From NCBI RefSeq assembly GCF_014770435.1, contig NZ_CP061739.1, positions 992,001 to 1,056,000 of the forward strand: a stretch of DNA of 64,000 bases, read 5' to 3'. A program made the translations under genes and the position numbers. Under the pieces are notes generated by a model. It did no database searches. It worked only from the letters and a program-made list of their open reading frames with translations, and was not told the DNA's origin. This stretch comes from Psychrobacter sp. 28M-43. GTDB lineage: Bacteria; Pseudomonadota; Gammaproteobacteria; Pseudomonadales; Moraxellaceae. Positions 5,179 through 49,730 of the stretch are shown piece by piece (position 1 is the first letter of the stretch; each line of letters opens with the position of its first letter).

Positions 5179-5537
5179 GGGGATGTTCTGGCTTCGACGC
5201 TGGTGATGAAACTCAATGATGCATGTCGAGAGTGTATGTCCTCTCGTTAATCAAACATATATTGTTATAGTCGCAAACGACGAAACTTACGCTCTAGCAG
5301 CTTAAACCCTGCTTACTTAGTTGCTGATCACCTACAGTTGGTTAACTAAGTTGAAGCGTCCGCATGTAGGCTCGCCACAAGTGATTGTCTCAATTGCTTG
5401 GGTTCAAAAGTAGAGAATCGTCCAATCCATCCTGACTGTCGGATCGGTGCGGATTAAAACTAAAGACAGAAACTAAACATGTAGATTCATGAGCGTAATG
5501 CTGGCGGACGCGGGTTCAACTCCCGCCATCTCCACCA
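5179..5537 (+). ncRNA. ssrA: tmRNA (transfer-messenger RNA)
   Basis: Starts with GGGGATGTTCTGGCTTCGACG and ends with the T-arm/acceptor GGGTTCAACTCCCGCCATCTCCACCA, the invariant ends of one-piece tmRNA. The tag frame begins with the resume codon GCA at 5273 and reads ANDETYALAA, with TAA at 5303-5305. tmRNA with SmpB rescues stalled ribosomes and tags the product for proteolysis. The last 27 bases lie within the phage attachment core, so this copy's 3' end was rebuilt by the integrated phage without changing the RNA. Confidence 0.97.
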
Positions 5538-5542
5538 AATAT
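5511..5542 (+). repeat. attL core (32-bp direct repeat with attR)
   Basis: Identical over 32 bases to 40972-41003. Flanking bases differ on both sides (G/T before, A/T after). It covers the tmRNA T-arm and acceptor end plus CCA and five bases beyond. Confidence 0.95.
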
Positions 5543-5619: not shown

Positions 5620-6774
5620 TCAGTCAGTTGTCAGCTTTGATATCTCAAGCTTATTCTGATCACCATGCAACCAACGCCCATATCGTTTGATAAGCATTTG
5701 CAAGCTATGGCCTAACTGGTTGGCGACGAATACTGGATTTACATTATCCATAAGAAGCATTGTAGCGTAAGTATGTCTGGCATTGTATGCAGGGCGATGT
5801 CTCACCCTCGTAGACTTCATTGCTTCAATCAATCTCATGCGGGCAGGCTTTTCATTGTAGAAAGGTTCATTCGTTTCTGGACATATCATCACATAGTCAT
5901 CATTCAGCTTCATAGCGTCCAGTGCTTCAAATGCACGCTTCGAGCGGTCATTCAAATATACTTCACGCGCTGTATGAGTTTTGGTAACTTGCTTCTCAAC
6001 GCCGCGCACACGGCTTTTATTGATGATCACTGAGCCGTTGAACCAGTCAATATCCTTCCATCTTAGAGCGTTCAGCTCACTAGGACGACATCCAGTCCAA
6101 AACGCTACTTCAAAATACCAATAATAAAAATGGTCCTTATCTGCCAAATTCTTATCCAACCAATTTAGTAAGGCATTCATTTCATCACGGGTGAATGGAT
6201 CAGGTAGTCCTGATTGCACCTTTTTATTTTTAATCATGGCCATGGGGTTTTCTGCAGGCGTGATTAATCGCAGCTCAATGGCTTTATCAAAGACACCGCG
6301 CAGTGGTACAAGGCAATTATTAAAAGTCTTGTCAGACTTAAAGTTAATGTCAGAGATGATGTCACGTATTAGGTCAGACGTTATTTCGTGAATGGGTATC
6401 AGTGCCATTTCAGGCATCCAGTGCTTATTCAATGCACTCACGTAGTCTTTTTTAGAGTCGGTATTGGCTTCACAGTGCTTCAGATACTTTTGGGCGATTT
6501 CTTGAAATAAAGCGCCATCACCAACGATAACGCTATCATCATTAACCATTTCGCCTTTAGCGCTGGCGAGGTCTGCTTCCGTGAGCACGCCCCATTCGGC
6601 TTTGGTAATTAGGTCGCGTCTAATTTTAGCAGCTGCTTTGATGCCTTCCGCAGTGACTGGGTGCGGGAGCGTGATGTGATAGGACTTACCGTCTCTGCTA
6701 AAGTAGATCTGAATGCGTCCCGATCTAAGCCGCACGCCTTGCGGTAACGTATGTCTGCTTGCTGTGTCATCCAC
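5620..6774 (-). CDS. int: Phage tyrosine integrase
   Basis: 384 aa with a GTG start at 6774 and GAGGAT-like SD upstream. Residues about 8-60 form the DUF3596-type arm-binding domain (LPQGVRLRSGRIQIYFSRDG), then a SAM-like core-binding domain. The catalytic domain has TGCRPSELNALRW (Arg about 230), KTHTAREV, YNARHTYATML (Arg box; the usual first His is Tyr, as in other members of this subfamily), QLGHS and KRYGRW (nucleophile Tyr near the C-terminus). It recombines the ssrA attachment site. It is last in the leftward operon and next to attL, and its 5' end overlaps xis by 166 bases. Confidence 0.95.
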   Translation of the reverse strand: MDDTASRHTLPQGVRLRSGRIQIYFSRDGKSYHITLPHPVTAEGIKAAAKIRRDLITKAEWGVLTEADLASAKGEMVNDDSVIVGDGALFQEIAQKYLKHCEANTDSKKDYVSALNKHWMPEMALIPIHEITSDLIRDIISDINFKSDKTFNNCLVPLRGVFDKAIELRLITPAENPMAMIKNKKVQSGLPDPFTRDEMNALLNWLDKNLADKDHFYYWYFEVAFWTGCRPSELNALRWKDIDWFNGSVIINKSRVRGVEKQVTKTHTAREVYLNDRSKRAFEALDAMKLNDDYVMICPETNEPFYNEKPARMRLIEAMKSTRVRHRPAYNARHTYATMLLMDNVNPVFVANQLGHSLQMLIKRYGRWLHGDQNKLEISKLTTD

Positions 6775-8391: not shown

Positions 8392-8517
8392 TTAATCCTT
8401 ACTGCTATCAACCTGTTTTTTAATTTCAGCCTTTAAATAACCTTTAAAGACCCATTTGGCAAAGTTATAAATTGCTAAGCCTAGAACGATGAAAAATATC
8501 ATTTTAAAATCAATCAT
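8392..8517 (-). CDS. Small single-span membrane protein
   Basis: 41 aa (MIDFKMIFFIVLGLAIYNFA... then a Lys-rich tail). Residues 6-22 form one membrane helix with positive residues after it. The ATG overlaps the stop of the upstream gene (ATGA at 8517), typical of coupled phage genes. The function is unknown. Confidence 0.65.
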   Translation of the reverse strand: MIDFKMIFFIVLGLAIYNFAKWVFKGYLKAEIKKQVDSSKD

Positions 8518-8807
8518 CACTCTCTCCCGTAAGCTGTGGATATAAACAGGTTGGCATGCTTTGCTGTCCCTGCCTGCTCAGATGCCTCGTAGACTTCATC
8601 GTCAAACCCATTCATAGGGTCTGTGACGTAGTTGTCATCGTCTTGCGCTAGATACGCCTTATGTTCGGCTATCAGCGCGTCTTGACCTGCTTCCTGACGC
8701 TCAAAAGCCTGATTGATATACTGCACGCCAGCCGTTGCTGCTGTCATACCAAGAACCAATAATGCGATAAGGCCAATGCTGGCTAGAAAGTCTTTGATTG
8801 AGTTCAT
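8517..8807 (-). CDS. Phage membrane-anchored small protein, first gene of leftward operon
   Basis: 96 aa with one N-terminal membrane helix (residues about 10-30) and an acidic soluble tail. It is the first gene after the PL-like promoter at 8840-8868. The function is unknown. Short membrane proteins at this place can act in exclusion or in host takeover, but nothing in the sequence shows which. Confidence 0.65.
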   Translation of the reverse strand: MNSIKDFLASIGLIALLVLGMTAATAGVQYINQAFERQEAGQDALIAEHKAYLAQDDDNYVTDPMNGFDDEVYEASEQAGTAKHANLFISTAYGRE

Positions 8808-8839: not shown

Positions 8840-8881
8840 ATAATAACCATAGTTATAATTACTGTCAATAACCAAAGTAAT
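8840..8881 (-). promoter_or_regulatory. PL-like promoter with two repressor operators
   Basis: Read leftward: -35 TTGACA (8868-8863), a 17-base spacer and -10 TATTAT (8845-8840). Operator 1, ATAACCATAGTTAT (8843-8856), fills the spacer and operator 2, ATAACCAAAGTAAT (8868-8881), abuts the -35. Both match the perfect palindrome ATAACCTAGGTTAT upstream of the repressor gene. It drives the int/xis operon. Confidence 0.8.
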
Positions 8882-8964: not shown

Positions 8965-8989
8965 AAAAAAACCGCCACTAGGGCGGTTT
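8965..8989 (-). terminator. Rho-independent terminator of the repressor operon
   Basis: Stem AAACCGCC (8969-8976) / GGCGGTTT (8982-8989) with loop ACTAG. Read leftward it is followed by a T run. It ends transcription of the repressor-HIRAN-SinR unit about 50 bases after the SinR-like gene and insulates PL from it. Confidence 0.85.
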
Positions 8990-9038: not shown

Positions 9039-9314
9039 TCAGGAATACTTACCAAGCCAATCGCGAATTTTTTGAGAAACATTAAACGAAGCCCACAGTT
9101 TCCCATTTACTGGAATAACAAATATCTTATCATCACTATCAGTAAAATTTCGTAAATGATCTACAATCTCTCTAGCTGACTTGTTTGATTTAACTATCCA
9201 TTGAGATTCTGTCGGTCTGGCATAAGCACCAGTTCCGCATGTTTTGATTCCTTCGTATATACGGTCGTAGTCCTTCTTCTTAACAAGATCATAGGTTATA
9301 GAGTATAAAGCCAT
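9039..9314 (-). CDS. SinR-family / Cas2-like small protein
   Basis: 91 aa, GAGGTG before the ATG. MALYSITYDLVKKKDYDRIYEGIKTCG begins like the SinR/Cas2/VapD-type ferredoxin fold (first strand ISYDL, then a helix), continues with a strand (SQWIVKSNKSAREI), a helix, and DKIFVIPVNGKLWASF as the last strand. Cas2-like proteins of this kind can be nucleases or structural dimers; the first-strand Asp (YDL) is present. It is last in the lysogenic transcript behind the repressor and the HIRAN gene. The fold assignment is by pattern, and no activity is implied. Confidence 0.65.
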   Translation of the reverse strand: MALYSITYDLVKKKDYDRIYEGIKTCGTGAYARPTESQWIVKSNKSAREIVDHLRNFTDSDDKIFVIPVNGKLWASFNVSQKIRDWLGKYS

Positions 9315-9389
9315 AATTTCACCTCATGCTATCGCCAGTCTCAAGCGTGCTGGCACGGACGCTTATTTATCCTTAGCCAATACCTAGCT

Positions 9390-9893
9390 TTAAAAGACTA
9401 TCGAGAAAACAAAAAACAATATTAGTACGCCTACGATAATCATTGTCATCGATATTTTTTGTTTGGGTGTTCCTGATAGCGGTGACGGTGACGGTGACGG
9501 CTGACTGGCTGCATCGTTATATTTTTTTAAACTTTGCGACGATCCAGCTAAATCCTCAAGGTTTAAATCAACCCAAGCACCGTACATAGGATGATCTCCT
9601 CTATATATCTTGCATCTTACAGACAGAGTATCTCTATTGCCTTCGCATAGGTGGCGATAACGAATAGCATCTTGCTTGGATAAATACCCCAATGTCCCAT
9701 GAGTAGAAACAACAGCTACTGCATTTTTGTCGTAAGGGTTATTTGGCTCATATACTAATTCGACATCAACAAAAGCAGATGCGCCTTTCTTAAGGGAATT
9801 AGGGTTTTTGTAGTTTTTGTCTAAAGCGGGCTGATAGTTCGATTCACCCACAATTGGGGTGTTGAACTCATACCCAAAATGCCAGTCCGTCAT
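9390..9893 (-). CDS. HIRAN-domain protein with a C-terminal membrane anchor
   Basis: 167 aa from ATG 9893 (AAGGA upstream). Residues about 8-75 hold FNTPIVGESNYQPAL, VELVYEPNNPYDKNAVAVV and LGYLSKQDAIRY, the signature of the HIRAN domain, known elsewhere as a binder of single-stranded DNA 3' ends (HLTF). A low-complexity SPSPSPS stretch, encoded by a tandem GGTGAC-type repeat near 9480, links to a hydrophobic C-terminus (about 149-167). This implies a tail-anchored inner-membrane protein facing the cytoplasm. It lies 16 bases after the repressor gene, so it is probably expressed in lysogens. A role in superinfection exclusion is inference. Confidence 0.75.
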   Translation of the reverse strand: MTDWHFGYEFNTPIVGESNYQPALDKNYKNPNSLKKGASAFVDVELVYEPNNPYDKNAVAVVSTHGTLGYLSKQDAIRYRHLCEGNRDTLSVRCKIYRGDHPMYGAWVDLNLEDLAGSSQSLKKYNDAASQPSPSPSPLSGTPKQKISMTMIIVGVLILFFVFSIVF

Positions 9894-9909: not shown

Positions 9910-10671
9910 TTAATGCTTTAAGAATGAATATCGCACCCGTCCAAATAGCGCGAACTGATTAAACGTATCACGAGTAATTAACTGATCTGGGTAGGTGTCT
10001 TTGTCAGTATTATCTGATTTTAATATCACCGTGCCATCTAAGTTTTTAATGGTGCGCTTACACATCATTTCGCCATCAGCATTAAACACGTAAATCTTAT
10101 TATTAATAAAGTTATCGTATTCGCTTTCATTGGTGTTTACCAGCATTAGAGTGCCATGCGGTATGGTATTACCCATGCTATCACTACAAGCGTGCATCAG
10201 AACCAATCCATTGCCATCAATGGGCAGGTCGTTATCTCTTAGAAATTCAACGGTAAACGCTTGGGTATGATAATCAGGATGTTCAAGATTGACGTATCCA
10301 TTTCCACAGCTGGCTTTGATATCCAAATATTTAATATCAACCAACCCATAATCTGTACGACCGCCAATAATAATATGATCTGAATTCTTGGCATCCTTTG
10401 AGTAGTCCCTGTCTTTTTCGTTAGACAGTGATGACTTAGTCACACTTCCTATGGCGCCTTGATCAAGCATCTCTCCAATGCCATTTGCCAGCCAATCAAT
10501 ATTAACCTCAAACACCTTGGCTAGCTCGCTTATATAAGTAGTCCGCTTTGTAAGCCCTTTTTCTATCTTGTAATAACTTGGCTGAGACATACCAGTGGCA
10601 TCTGCCACATCTTGTTGAGATAGATTCAACCTGTCTCTAGCCAGCTTAACCCTCTCTGCTAATGTGCTCAT
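9910..10671 (-). CDS. CI-like phage repressor (HTH plus S24 peptidase)
   Basis: 253 aa from ATG 10671 with GGAGG six bases upstream. Residues 1-65 form an XRE helix-turn-helix (LSQQDVADATGMSQPSYYKIEKG). The C-terminal S24 domain has the self-cleavage site Cys122-Gly123, catalytic Ser165 (SDSM) and Lys205 (MCKR). RecA-stimulated self-cleavage should induce the prophage. It is read leftward from its own promoter at 10696-10724 and probably binds the ATAAC-N4-GTTAT operators here and at PL. Confidence 0.93.
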   Translation of the reverse strand: MSTLAERVKLARDRLNLSQQDVADATGMSQPSYYKIEKGLTKRTTYISELAKVFEVNIDWLANGIGEMLDQGAIGSVTKSSLSNEKDRDYSKDAKNSDHIIIGGRTDYGLVDIKYLDIKASCGNGYVNLEHPDYHTQAFTVEFLRDNDLPIDGNGLVLMHACSDSMGNTIPHGTLMLVNTNESEYDNFINNKIYVFNADGEMMCKRTIKNLDGTVILKSDNTDKDTYPDQLITRDTFNQFALFGRVRYSFLKH

Positions 10672-10695: not shown

Positions 10696-10724
10696 ATTTT
10701 AATAACCTAGGTTATCAATGTAAA
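10696..10724 (-). promoter_or_regulatory. Repressor promoter with operator in the spacer
   Basis: Leftward -35 TTTACA (10724-10719), a 17-base spacer and -10 TAAAAT (10701-10696). The spacer contains the perfect palindrome ATAACCTAGGTTAT (10702-10715), so occupancy would block the promoter. That suggests autorepression or Cro action. Confidence 0.7.
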
Positions 10725-10737
10725 ATGCTTAAAGTTA

Positions 10738-10792
10738 TTGATTTATAATAACTAAAGTTATATTATTAAGGGGTAATTATACCTAGGGTAAT
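10738..10792 (+). promoter_or_regulatory. PR-like promoter with two operators
   Basis: -35 TTGATT (10738-10743), a 17-base spacer and -10 TATTAT (10761-10766). Operator ATAACTAAAGTTAT (10748-10761) sits in the spacer. A further dyad, ATACCTAGGGTAAT (10779-10792), lies just before the cro start and may block translation initiation or early elongation. The predicted 5' leader is about 24 bases with no strong SD. Confidence 0.75.
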
Positions 10793-10796
10793 AAAA

Positions 10797-11018
10797 ATGA
10801 ATCCCAACAATCCTTATAAAGCTCTCGTCAGCTATTTCGGCAACCAGCATAAAACAGCTAAAGCCTTGGGCTGTAGCCAGCCTGGTGTATGGAAATGGGT
10901 TCGAGGCAAATCTAATATGTCAGCTGCTTTGGCACTAAAGGCAGAACGAGTAACTAATGGTGAGTTCAAGGCCGTCGATCTTTGCCCCGCACTAGCATCG
11001 CCTGAAGCCACTGATTAA
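10797..11018 (+). CDS. Cro/YdaS-like transcriptional regulator
   Basis: 73 aa. NPYKALVSYFGNQHKTAKALGCSQPGVWKWVRGKSNMSAALALKAERVTNGEFKAVDLCP is the Cro/YdaS helix-turn-helix. It diverges from the repressor gene and starts 30 bases after the PR -10. It probably competes with the repressor for the shared operators and commits the phage to lytic growth. Confidence 0.85.
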   Translation: MNPNNPYKALVSYFGNQHKTAKALGCSQPGVWKWVRGKSNMSAALALKAERVTNGEFKAVDLCPALASPEATD

Positions 11019-40082: not shown

Positions 40083-40790
40083 ATGCTAAAAAAGATAATG
40101 TTAGTTTTATTATTTTCTGTGTTCTTCTTATATGGATTAGCAGTTGGTCACTACAATGTATTTCCGTTTCATCAGATAGTAGCAGCAAAACACTTTATCT
40201 CAGGGCCTGAGCCAGAAATATCTTTTGTTGCCACTCCATATTATCTACATAAAAAGACGTTTTTTCAATTAAACTCACAGGATGATTATAATATAGTTTT
40301 TATTGGGGATAGTATAACGGACGAAAGTGATTGGTATGATATTTTTCCAGATCAAATCATAGCAAATAGAGGTATCAGTGGCGATAGCACTGAAGGTGTT
40401 TTAAAACGTATGGATACAATCACAAATACGAAAGCTGAAAAAGCTTTTATCATGATTGGGACTAACGATATCGCCAGTGATGTTGACGTCGAAACTATCA
40501 TCGAAAATTATGAGAAAATATTAGATGAGCTAGAGATTAATAAAATCACGCCAATTGTTCAGTCAACTCTTCTTACGTATAACAAAACCGCAGAACGAAA
40601 CGAGAATATTAATAAATTAAACACGAAATTAAAATCTGTTTGCTTAAAAAGAAATATCACATACGTGGATCTGAATCCGTATCTTTCGGAGAATGGCATG
40701 TTGAGTGAGAAATATTCATATGATGGCTTACATTTAAATGGGGAAGGCTATGCTATGTGGTCTAAAGTTATATTAGAGTATGTAAACTAG
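40083..40790 (+). CDS. SGNH/GDSL hydrolase, membrane-anchored cargo (moron)
   Basis: 235 aa. An N-terminal hydrophobic segment (residues 5-25) acts as signal or anchor. The SGNH blocks are IVFIGDSIT (Ser77), NRGISGDST (Gly), MIGTNDI (Asn128) and YDGLHLN (Asp214, His217). All catalytic residues are present. It is AT-rich compared with its neighbours, flanked by a 31-bp duplication, and lies between the endolysin and attR, the usual place of lysogenic-conversion genes. A surface-polysaccharide deacetylase role is inferred. Confidence 0.82.
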   Translation: MLKKIMLVLLFSVFFLYGLAVGHYNVFPFHQIVAAKHFISGPEPEISFVATPYYLHKKTFFQLNSQDDYNIVFIGDSITDESDWYDIFPDQIIANRGISGDSTEGVLKRMDTITNTKAEKAFIMIGTNDIASDVDVETIIENYEKILDELEINKITPIVQSTLLTYNKTAERNENINKLNTKLKSVCLKRNITYVDLNPYLSENGMLSEKYSYDGLHLNGEGYAMWSKVILEYVN

Positions 40791-40971: not shown

Positions 40972-41003
40972 CGGGTTCAACTCCCGCCATCTCCACCAAA
41001 TAT
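40972..41003 (+). repeat. attR core
   Basis: 32-bp perfect copy of 5511-5542, followed directly by host sequence with the displaced ssrA terminator. Confidence 0.95.
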
Positions 41004-48170: not shown

Positions 48171-49730
48171 TTATGAGTCAGACATGTGAATATTGACGGG
48201 CTCCATGCTACTTATTTGACTGCTGCTTTCGTTGTATAAATCATCCAAAAAACTCTGCTGCCAAATCTGCAAATTATCTTTCTGTAACCCTTGCAGTAAT
48301 GACCGATAACGAGACTGACGCTCTTCTAATGGCATCGTGAGGGCCGTTCTCAATCCTGTTAACATGCTATCTGAGCTATTAGGGTCTATAAGGACTGCAT
48401 CTTGCATTTGCTCAGCTGCTCCAGCATAACGCGAGAGTAATAGCACACCAGGATTATCAGGATTTTGGGCAGCAACATACTCTTTAGCAACCAAGTTCAT
48501 GCCATCTTTAAGTGAGTTCACCCAACCGACATCACTTTGCCAAAACATCGTCATCAATGTTTCATGGCTCAGTACGGTTTCGCTATAATTAATGGCTTGC
48601 CAAGAGCTCTTCTCAGATGAGTATTGCTGATTAATTTTATGAACCTTATTTTTGACATCGTTATAGAGACTTTGATATGCCAGCAAATCTAAACGACTAG
48701 GGCAGGCGACTTGTAATAACTGCAAACGGTTTTGATATGATGGATTTTGCGCCAGAAAATCGTCATATGCTGCAAAGCGTTCTAGCAGCCCTTTTGAATA
48801 ATCGATCCTATCCACTGCAATAATCTGTTGAAAGGCAGGCTTTTTATTTTTATAAAGTGGGGTAGAGTGCAAGAAGATAGTTGAAGATAAGTGTTTAATC
48901 TGTTCTTGAATTTGTGCCACATTGACCCCTATTGGATAAGCATCCACCATTAAAGAATGCTGAGATTTCAGCGCTAAATTGAGCGTCATTTTTGCTCTAG
49001 TACAGGTATAGGGCTGAGCAAAATTTCGCTTCATATCTAACACATTTATCGGCGCGCTTGCTCCAAGCTGGTCGTGTATAAAATGATCTTTCAAATAATA
49101 CTGCAAGACATTCAAGCAATTATTTCTATCTCGCTGAGTTTGCGTACCTACTAGATCATAATGAGCCAAATGATGCACAATCTCACGACTTTGTTTGAGC
49201 GTTTTCCAAAATTGTAATGAGGCAAAGGGGATATGTAAGAAAAATCCGATACGATTAAAGATGCCTAACTGTCTACAATAATATGCCACGCTTAAAAAAT
49301 GATAATCATGTACCCAAATTACATCATCAGGCTCAATAATCCTTTTTAGTTGTTTAGCGAACAGACGGTTTATCGCTTGATAGCCTGTGTGATATTCTAG
49401 TGTTTGATTGATTAAATCGGTTCTCTCATGCAATAGTGGCCATAAGACACTGTTAGCAAAGCCACAGTAAAATTGGTCATATTGTTCTGTAGTGAGGGCA
49501 GTGGTCATATAGGTAAGATACGTATCACTACCTTTTACATTGACTTCATCGCTGTTAAAGGGATTAGTGGAGTCATTATAACTATGGTTATCGACGACCT
49601 TGCCATTCCAACCCATCCAAACCACTGAACTCCCTATTAAGACATTTTGCAATGCTACCGCCAGTCCACCAGCCATCGGTTTATTATCAGGGAGCTTAAC
49701 TCGATTTGATAAGACAATTAAGCGACTCAT
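48171..49730 (-). CDS. otsA: Trehalose-6-phosphate synthase
   Basis: 519 aa, GT20. MSRLIVLSNRVKLPDNKPMAGGLAVAL (Arg and Gly loop), WMGWNG, VIWVHDYHFLSVAYYCRQLGIFNRIGFFLHIPFAS, AVDRIDYSKGLLERF (Arg/Lys) and DGMNLVAKEYVAAQ complete the active site. It makes trehalose-6-phosphate from UDP-glucose and glucose-6-phosphate. It is second in the operon, 21 bases after otsB. Confidence 0.94.
   Translation of the reverse strand: MSRLIVLSNRVKLPDNKPMAGGLAVALQNVLIGSSVVWMGWNGKVVDNHSYNDSTNPFNSDEVNVKGSDTYLTYMTTALTTEQYDQFYCGFANSVLWPLLHERTDLINQTLEYHTGYQAINRLFAKQLKRIIEPDDVIWVHDYHFLSVAYYCRQLGIFNRIGFFLHIPFASLQFWKTLKQSREIVHHLAHYDLVGTQTQRDRNNCLNVLQYYLKDHFIHDQLGASAPINVLDMKRNFAQPYTCTRAKMTLNLALKSQHSLMVDAYPIGVNVAQIQEQIKHLSSTIFLHSTPLYKNKKPAFQQIIAVDRIDYSKGLLERFAAYDDFLAQNPSYQNRLQLLQVACPSRLDLLAYQSLYNDVKNKVHKINQQYSSEKSSWQAINYSETVLSHETLMTMFWQSDVGWVNSLKDGMNLVAKEYVAAQNPDNPGVLLLSRYAGAAEQMQDAVLIDPNSSDSMLTGLRTALTMPLEERQSRYRSLLQGLQKDNLQIWQQSFLDDLYNESSSQISSMEPVNIHMSDS

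Follow-up and report, generated by a model that had tools for sequence, protein, structure and literature searches.

A prophage of Psychrobacter sp. 28M-43 carries, behind its CI repressor gene, the gene of a HIRAN protein with a hydrophobic C-terminal tail. We tentatively read this protein as a membrane-held trap that catches incoming DNA by its 3' ends. It would be produced in the lysogen and serve superinfection exclusion, with the Cas2-like gene that follows as separate cargo; the reading is preferred here as possible rather than probable. The window (the whole stretch of 64,000 nucleotides that was analysed, G000:C1:992001-1056000) belongs to a 3.1-Mb genome, and where close relatives of its HIRAN protein are named, they come from Psychrobacter. 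A 32-bp direct repeat flanks the prophage and corresponds to the 3' end of the tmRNA gene (Table 1). On the minus strand, from right to left, the order is CI, HIRAN, Cas2-like gene and a terminator-like hairpin. The CI stop and the HIRAN start are 16 nt apart, and the HIRAN ribosome site lies within this gap. The coordinates given for this array in the initial annotation hold on re-check, and the open reading frames and the hairpin at 8969-8989 bear out its description of the HIRAN and Cas2-like genes as co-oriented with CI, with a hairpin behind all three. We infer that the three genes are co-transcribed.

Table 1. Features of the prophage and its lysogeny region (window coordinates; a blank cell means that nothing is reported).
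Feature	Position	Strand	Basis
attL, tmRNA 3' end, 32-bp repeat	5511..5542	+	repeat and tmRNA call
Tyrosine integrase	5620..6774	-	PF00589 4.1e-14
Operator-like palindrome, left cluster, within promoter-like site 8868-8840 (-)	8843..8856
Operator-like site, one mismatch, left cluster	8868..8881
Terminator-like hairpin behind three genes	8969..8989	-
Cas2-fold small protein, PHROG 1090, 91 aa	9039..9314	-	phrog_1090 E 3.4e-23; predicted fold
HIRAN protein with C-terminal hydrophobic tail, 167 aa	9390..9893	-
C-terminal hydrophobic segment, residues 149-167	9393..9449	-	Kyte-Doolittle mean 2.92; helix 149-166 predicted
HIRAN domain match, residues 36-96, EPNNPYDKNAV motif	9606..9788	-	Pfam PF08797 E 7.7e-8; motif aligned to HLTF
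CI repressor, HTH and S24 peptidase domain	9910..10671	-	PF01381 4.3e-12, PF00717 3.5e-11
Promoter-like site before CI, PRM position	10696..10724	-	10/12 consensus matches, consensus only
Operator-like palindrome, right cluster	10702..10715
Operator-like palindrome, right cluster	10748..10761
Cro/YdaS-like repressor, divergent from CI	10797..11018	+	PF15943 2.6e-10, PF14549 2.6e-8
attR, 32-bp repeat copy 2	40972..41003	+	repeat

The palindrome ATAACNNNNGTTAT has exactly four exact copies in the 64 kb. Two are in the gap between CI and Cro; another, at 8843-8856, precedes the gene 8517-8807, which is read leftward; the fourth, at 49578, is outside the prophage. At up to one mismatch there are six sites, an unremarkable number that 16 of 100 shuffles also reach, but four of the six are located at the two control regions. 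The top promoter-like site of the region (8868-8840, minus strand, 11/12) overlaps the left operator-like cluster; promoter-like sites are no commoner than in shuffles (10 vs. 8.3). Because of the positions of the palindromes, from which the operators are deduced, the CI, HIRAN and Cas2-like genes are placed between two operator-like clusters, and this position points to their expression in the lysogen. In phage λ, cI-rexA-rexB lies between the right and left operators. The window slot resembles that of rexA-rexB in being downstream of CI and between right and left operators, as deduced from the palindromes, and in combining a DNA-sensing part with a membrane part. Unlike rexA-rexB, the window has the DNA-binding domain and the membrane segment in one protein, the comparison being one of slots. 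The first gene past the left operator-like cluster (8517-8807, minus strand) encodes a 96-aa protein with a hydrophobic N-terminal stretch, whose relatives occupy the same place in close phage loci.

The HIRAN domain call of the initial annotation is confirmed by a PF08797 score of 32.5 bits (gathering cut-off 24.7), by a match at 3.8e-5 of a profile of 31 sequences to the HLTF HIRAN domain in the PDB via PNNPYDKNA, and by a predicted HIRAN fold. The protein model has a mean pLDDT of 78, with values below 50 at residues 1-7 and 130-147, and a fold search with it matched HIRAN structures and nothing close beyond them. Hydropathy and a predicted helix likewise sustain the hydrophobic C-terminal tail, the final 19 residues being hydrophobic and helical by prediction. 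The protein is presumably located in the inner membrane. With the HIRAN domain of HLTF it shares the predicted fold and the PNNPYDKNA motif; it differs from HLTF in having no helicase part and in being short, membrane-tailed and phage-borne. The tyrosine of its NPYD we take to be the equivalent of HLTF Y93. In HLTF, Y72 and Y93 have been reported to flank a pocket for a single-stranded dinucleotide (PMC4666394). Judged from its sequence, the window protein may bind DNA 3' ends. A tblastn search of plasmid records with the window protein gave no match, nor did a search of the phages collection, where three HIRAN relatives used as queries matched in 11, 2 and 2 records. PADLOC found a weak similarity of the HIRAN region to PDC-M03B, which counts against the membrane-trap reading.

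Two peptide patterns served to collect the phage HIRANs, and therefore only that HIRAN subtype was sampled. The 57 viral loci were clustered at 70% identity into 37 representatives, and control genes were not dereplicated. Transmembrane calls were made by hydropathy alone, and CI-like calls by a profile grown from the window CI and applied within the fetched loci. A membrane-type segment was found in 29 of the 37 phage HIRANs, as against 37 of 397 other genes (120-360 aa, 57 loci; Fisher p 6e-20), and was absent in eight. The segment stands before the HIRAN core in 23 proteins and after it in six and, because it occurs on both sides of the domain, the sequences suggest that tethering arose more than once. 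The bias of K/R residues is predicted to put the HIRAN on the cytoplasmic side in 26 of the 29, outside in two, with one tie. By reading, 35 of the 37 retain the core N-x-(aromatic/His)-D-x-x-A; the pattern counted 36, and its match in L043 looks spurious.

Of the phage HIRANs, 11/37 have a co-oriented CI-like gene no more than 1 kb upstream, vs. 9/243 control genes (p 4e-6), and in 26/37 none was detected within this distance. Nine of these CI-like genes were scanned in one set; seven pass the Pfam cut-off for a repressor HTH or S24, that of L024 matches HTH below the cut-off and that of L036 has no match. The CI-like gene of L016, scanned separately, also passes. The S24 domain was found by Pfam in 6 of 38 genes upstream of HIRAN, a set made of 42 non-Psychrobacter genes minus six near-duplicates, plus one ORF each from L036 and L019, with the L033 entry replaced by a nearer CI-like ORF. 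Among HIRAN loci of named genomes, which span several phyla, the membrane-type segment was present in 23/32, some of the proteins being 400-590 aa long, and only 4/32, two of them Psychrobacter, have a co-oriented CI-like gene upstream. The Staphylococcus aureus phage phiSa2-NARSA676 has an S24-type CI and then a HIRAN gene, head to tail, and phage P954 has a similar order with a small annotated ORF overlapping the gap. The HIRAN proteins of both phages have no hydrophobic segment and a different N-terminal part, and in the S. aureus phage proteins at L160 2115-2861 and L162 2007-2861 this different part replaces the membrane segment. A HIRAN protein has also been reported within the replication module of Stenotrophomonas phage DLP4 (PMC6469090), and bacterial HIRAN domains occur in kinase toxin-antitoxin proteins as well (PMC8262856). 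Both observations speak against the membrane-trap reading, as do the phage HIRANs that lack the segment or a CI-like gene upstream. A shared downstream partner of the other phage HIRANs was sought and rejected, as 10 proteins scanned gave three matches (Bro-N, HTH and Clp protease), none of them common.

Kwun and colleagues have named ThaL, a pneumococcal protein with a HIRAN domain and a membrane segment, in a 2025 study on pneumococcal prophages and transformation, the main text of which mentions thaL once (PMC12637031). The protein type therefore already has a name, and a membrane HIRAN has a precedent. Like ThaL, the window protein combines HIRAN with a transmembrane segment, called by hydropathy only, in the lysogeny module of a C1-type prophage. 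Unlike ThaL, which is from a Gram-positive host, it has the segment at the C-terminus and a Cas2-like gene behind it, the two proteins being compared by their descriptions. Among the matches listed, the literature search found no work on what a membrane HIRAN protein or PHROG 1090 does, and no account of the breadth of membrane HIRANs over phages, their two-sided anchoring, their cytoplasmic bias or their Cas2-like neighbour.

The Cas2-type fold of the second protein is supported. The phrog_1090 profile covers residues 1-88 (E 3.4e-23) and the model has a ferredoxin-like Cas2 fold, but Pfam Cas2 (PF09827) scores 14.1 bits, below its gathering cut-off of 23.8. In a PDB sequence search with the alignment, the top rows were designed proteins and antibodies, and Cas2 appeared only at E 0.52. 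Like BPSL1038 and Cas2, and perhaps the VapD nucleases, the protein has a ferredoxin-like fold with a conserved Asp ending strand 1. It differs from Cas2 and BPSL1038 in the absence of cas1 from the genome, in its sub-threshold Pfam Cas2 score and in the absence of the BPSL1038 motif D(X20)SST, in place of which it has D9 and then T35-E36-S37. A search of the host genome for Cas1 gave no match, and a CRISPR adaptation role or a Cas1 decoy in this host was rejected on this ground. VapD is not named among the 50 fold matches listed, and this absence is no evidence against VapD. The 50 viral loci with Cas2-like genes reduce to 19 representatives, of which 11 have a co-oriented CI-like gene at most 1.3 kb upstream; among small control genes this holds for 16 of 135 (p 2e-5). 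An S24 domain was recognised by Pfam in 25 of the 29 upstream neighbours of the Cas2-like gene that were scanned, a set that holds 28 of 30 collected (L092 and L114 left out) and a second gene of L111, with near-duplicates kept. Ten genes were scanned in the interval from CI to the Cas2-like gene, or adjoining it, in other phages; one is AbiJ-type (L111), one is HicB (L089) and eight have no match. In L111 (2178-5267), CI and the Cas2-like gene point the same way, as do the genes between them, an AbiJ_NTD4 gene and two others that have no Pfam match. A defence role for the HIRAN and Cas2-like region is plausible because of this AbiJ-type and HicB company. Their location, their repeated occurrence next to CI in phages that are not related, and the abortive-infection or antitoxin company in two cases agree with cargo that is expressed in lysogeny.

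If the preferred reading of a membrane-held trap is correct, the HIRAN protein would be made with CI in the lysogen, its C-terminal tail would anchor it in the inner membrane with the HIRAN domain in the cytoplasm, and it would bind the 3' ends of linear DNA reaching the membrane, above all the injected DNA of a second phage. Such binding would hinder end joining, circularisation or further entry. The gene would then serve superinfection exclusion, which is the function that we infer, and would occupy the position of rexAB in λ. In favour of this reading are the HIRAN match by sequence and predicted fold, the retained core motif, the frequency of membrane-type segments and of CI-like genes upstream, and the steadiness of HIRAN in the Psychrobacter-type sets. 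The Cas2-like gene would be separately acquired, exchangeable cargo of nuclease-type fold that may contribute by cleaving nucleic acid and would not be a fixed partner. As a DNA-end-binding domain at the inner membrane, with segments on either protein end, would meet DNA arriving at the membrane, injected phage DNA is the first candidate target and transforming single strands the second.

Transforming DNA enters as a single strand, 3' end first, and would thus meet a membrane-held binder of 3' ends earlier than RecA. The membrane HIRAN might on that account guard the prophage against loss by natural transformation, sparing it both deletion by recombination and RecA-driven induction, an explanation that we consider unlikely. 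The host genome has comEC and dprA, which say little because comEC-type genes were matched in 10/14 control genomes and dprA in 11/14. HIRAN domains have been reported to bind DNA ends (PMC8262856), and the dinucleotide pocket of HLTF (PMC4666394) also agrees with capture of single strands. ThaL, the sole printed mention found of the type, comes from a study on pneumococcal prophages and transformation, but the main text gives no test of thaL beside that mention (PMC12637031). A lysogeny-linked sensor of DNA damage or forks, which binds stalled-fork or broken ends and alters induction together with the S24-type CI, is likewise a doubtful role for the HIRAN protein. HIRAN acts in fork remodelling by HLTF (PMC4666394) and an S24-type CI does adjoin the gene, but a membrane anchor is an odd site for a nucleoid sensor, and the CI beside the same HIRAN spans 18-99% identity, which argues against a specific CI partner.

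The initial annotation had proposed HIRAN and Cas2-like proteins as one two-part nuclease system, and this now appears very unlikely. Over seven complete Psychrobacter-type sets (the window and six others), identities are 75-92% for HIRAN, 46-97% for Cas2-like and 18-99% for CI, and HIRAN identity is correlated neither with Cas2-like identity (Spearman -0.23, p 0.31) nor with CI identity (Spearman -0.12), each from 21 non-independent pairs. The window and L010 share CI at 99% and HIRAN at 90% and differ in the Cas2-like allele (47%), and the window and L009 share HIRAN at 86% and the Cas2-like allele at 97% and differ in CI (18%). HIRAN thus appears as the steady element whose neighbours are swapped. 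Its dN is 0.05-0.13 vs. a dS of 0.18-0.97 and is the smaller of the two in each of the six comparisons with the window, and the sequences suggest purifying selection. In favour of a pair, the Cas2-like gene follows HIRAN in the window and, at full length, in six of seven close HIRAN loci in IMG/VR, the seventh, L015, having a shortened ORF of 51 aa; G075 likewise has the two genes side by side, its HIRAN and CI frames being split. HIRAN was found in four and the Cas2-like protein in three of 105 genomes of the genus, the window's own included. No Cas2-like gene adjoins HIRAN in the 3.5-kb stretches of G006 and G087, the latter having a weak match on another contig, and none was found in the fetched stretches of 50 more distant viral HIRAN loci (L016-L065). 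Conversely, 46 of the 50 viral Cas2-like loci lack HIRAN within the stretch fetched, and in L070 the Cas2-like gene follows CI directly without HIRAN. Uncorrelated identities and separate occurrence rule out an obligate pair as a general rule and speak against one functional pair, and the Cas2-like protein probably acts alone. That it works independently as a nuclease or toxin of the VapD or BPSL1038 kind, with HIRAN as unrelated cargo and nothing joint, is nevertheless quite unlikely. Its closest fold among the matches listed is BPSL1038, reported to be a dsDNA endonuclease (PMC10491678), and the family is also present in P2-like phages and plasmids (50 of 72,556 plasmid records). Against this stand the missing D(X20)SST motif and the neighbouring window genes scanned, among which Pfam names no antitoxin, the Cro gene also matching YdaS.

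A wider form of the preferred membrane-trap reading, which must be called doubtful, is that membrane-held HIRANs are a widespread, repeatedly invented class of prophage proteins that police the membrane for DNA 3' ends and block superinfection and transformation alike, the latter preventing the prophage from being recombined out, with Psychrobacter-type phages adding a Cas2-related nuclease in the operon. If true, a small membrane-fixed DNA-end-binding domain would be a simple and general prophage means of stopping foreign DNA, and superinfection exclusion would be linked to the escape of prophages from removal by transformation. The class is recognisable from sequence alone, and the Cas2-like family adds CRISPR-free Cas2-fold proteins in phage lysogeny operons.

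Several minor observations were made in the same loci. The shortened Cas2-like ORF of L015 (5543-5698) and the split HIRAN and CI frames of L003 (1828-2330, one genome) represent decay or sequence error. In the P2-like phages, P2-EC53 has its Cas2-like gene within the Z region, and a Klebsiella phage has it adjoining the portal gene. In an E. coli P2-like prophage (L156 2252-2762), a DUF3606 gene and then the Cas2-like gene lie between tail genes, a setting comparable to the Z region of P2-EC53 with its putative lysogenic conversion ORF. In L072 (5251-5463) and similarly in L069, L073-L080, L082, L084-L089 and L115, contigs that are Acinetobacter-like only by likeness to one plasmid region, a small homologous gene (about 65-97 aa) is placed tail to tail with the Cas2-like gene and in many cases overlaps the end of the latter. 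It was rejected as a conserved partner, being a convergent ORF of one viral contig group that is absent in Psychrobacter-type loci. Finally, the gene that adjoins attR in the window (40083-40790, plus strand) is SGNH/GDSL hydrolase-like by eye only (GDS, GTND, DGLH), and is a possible further cargo gene.
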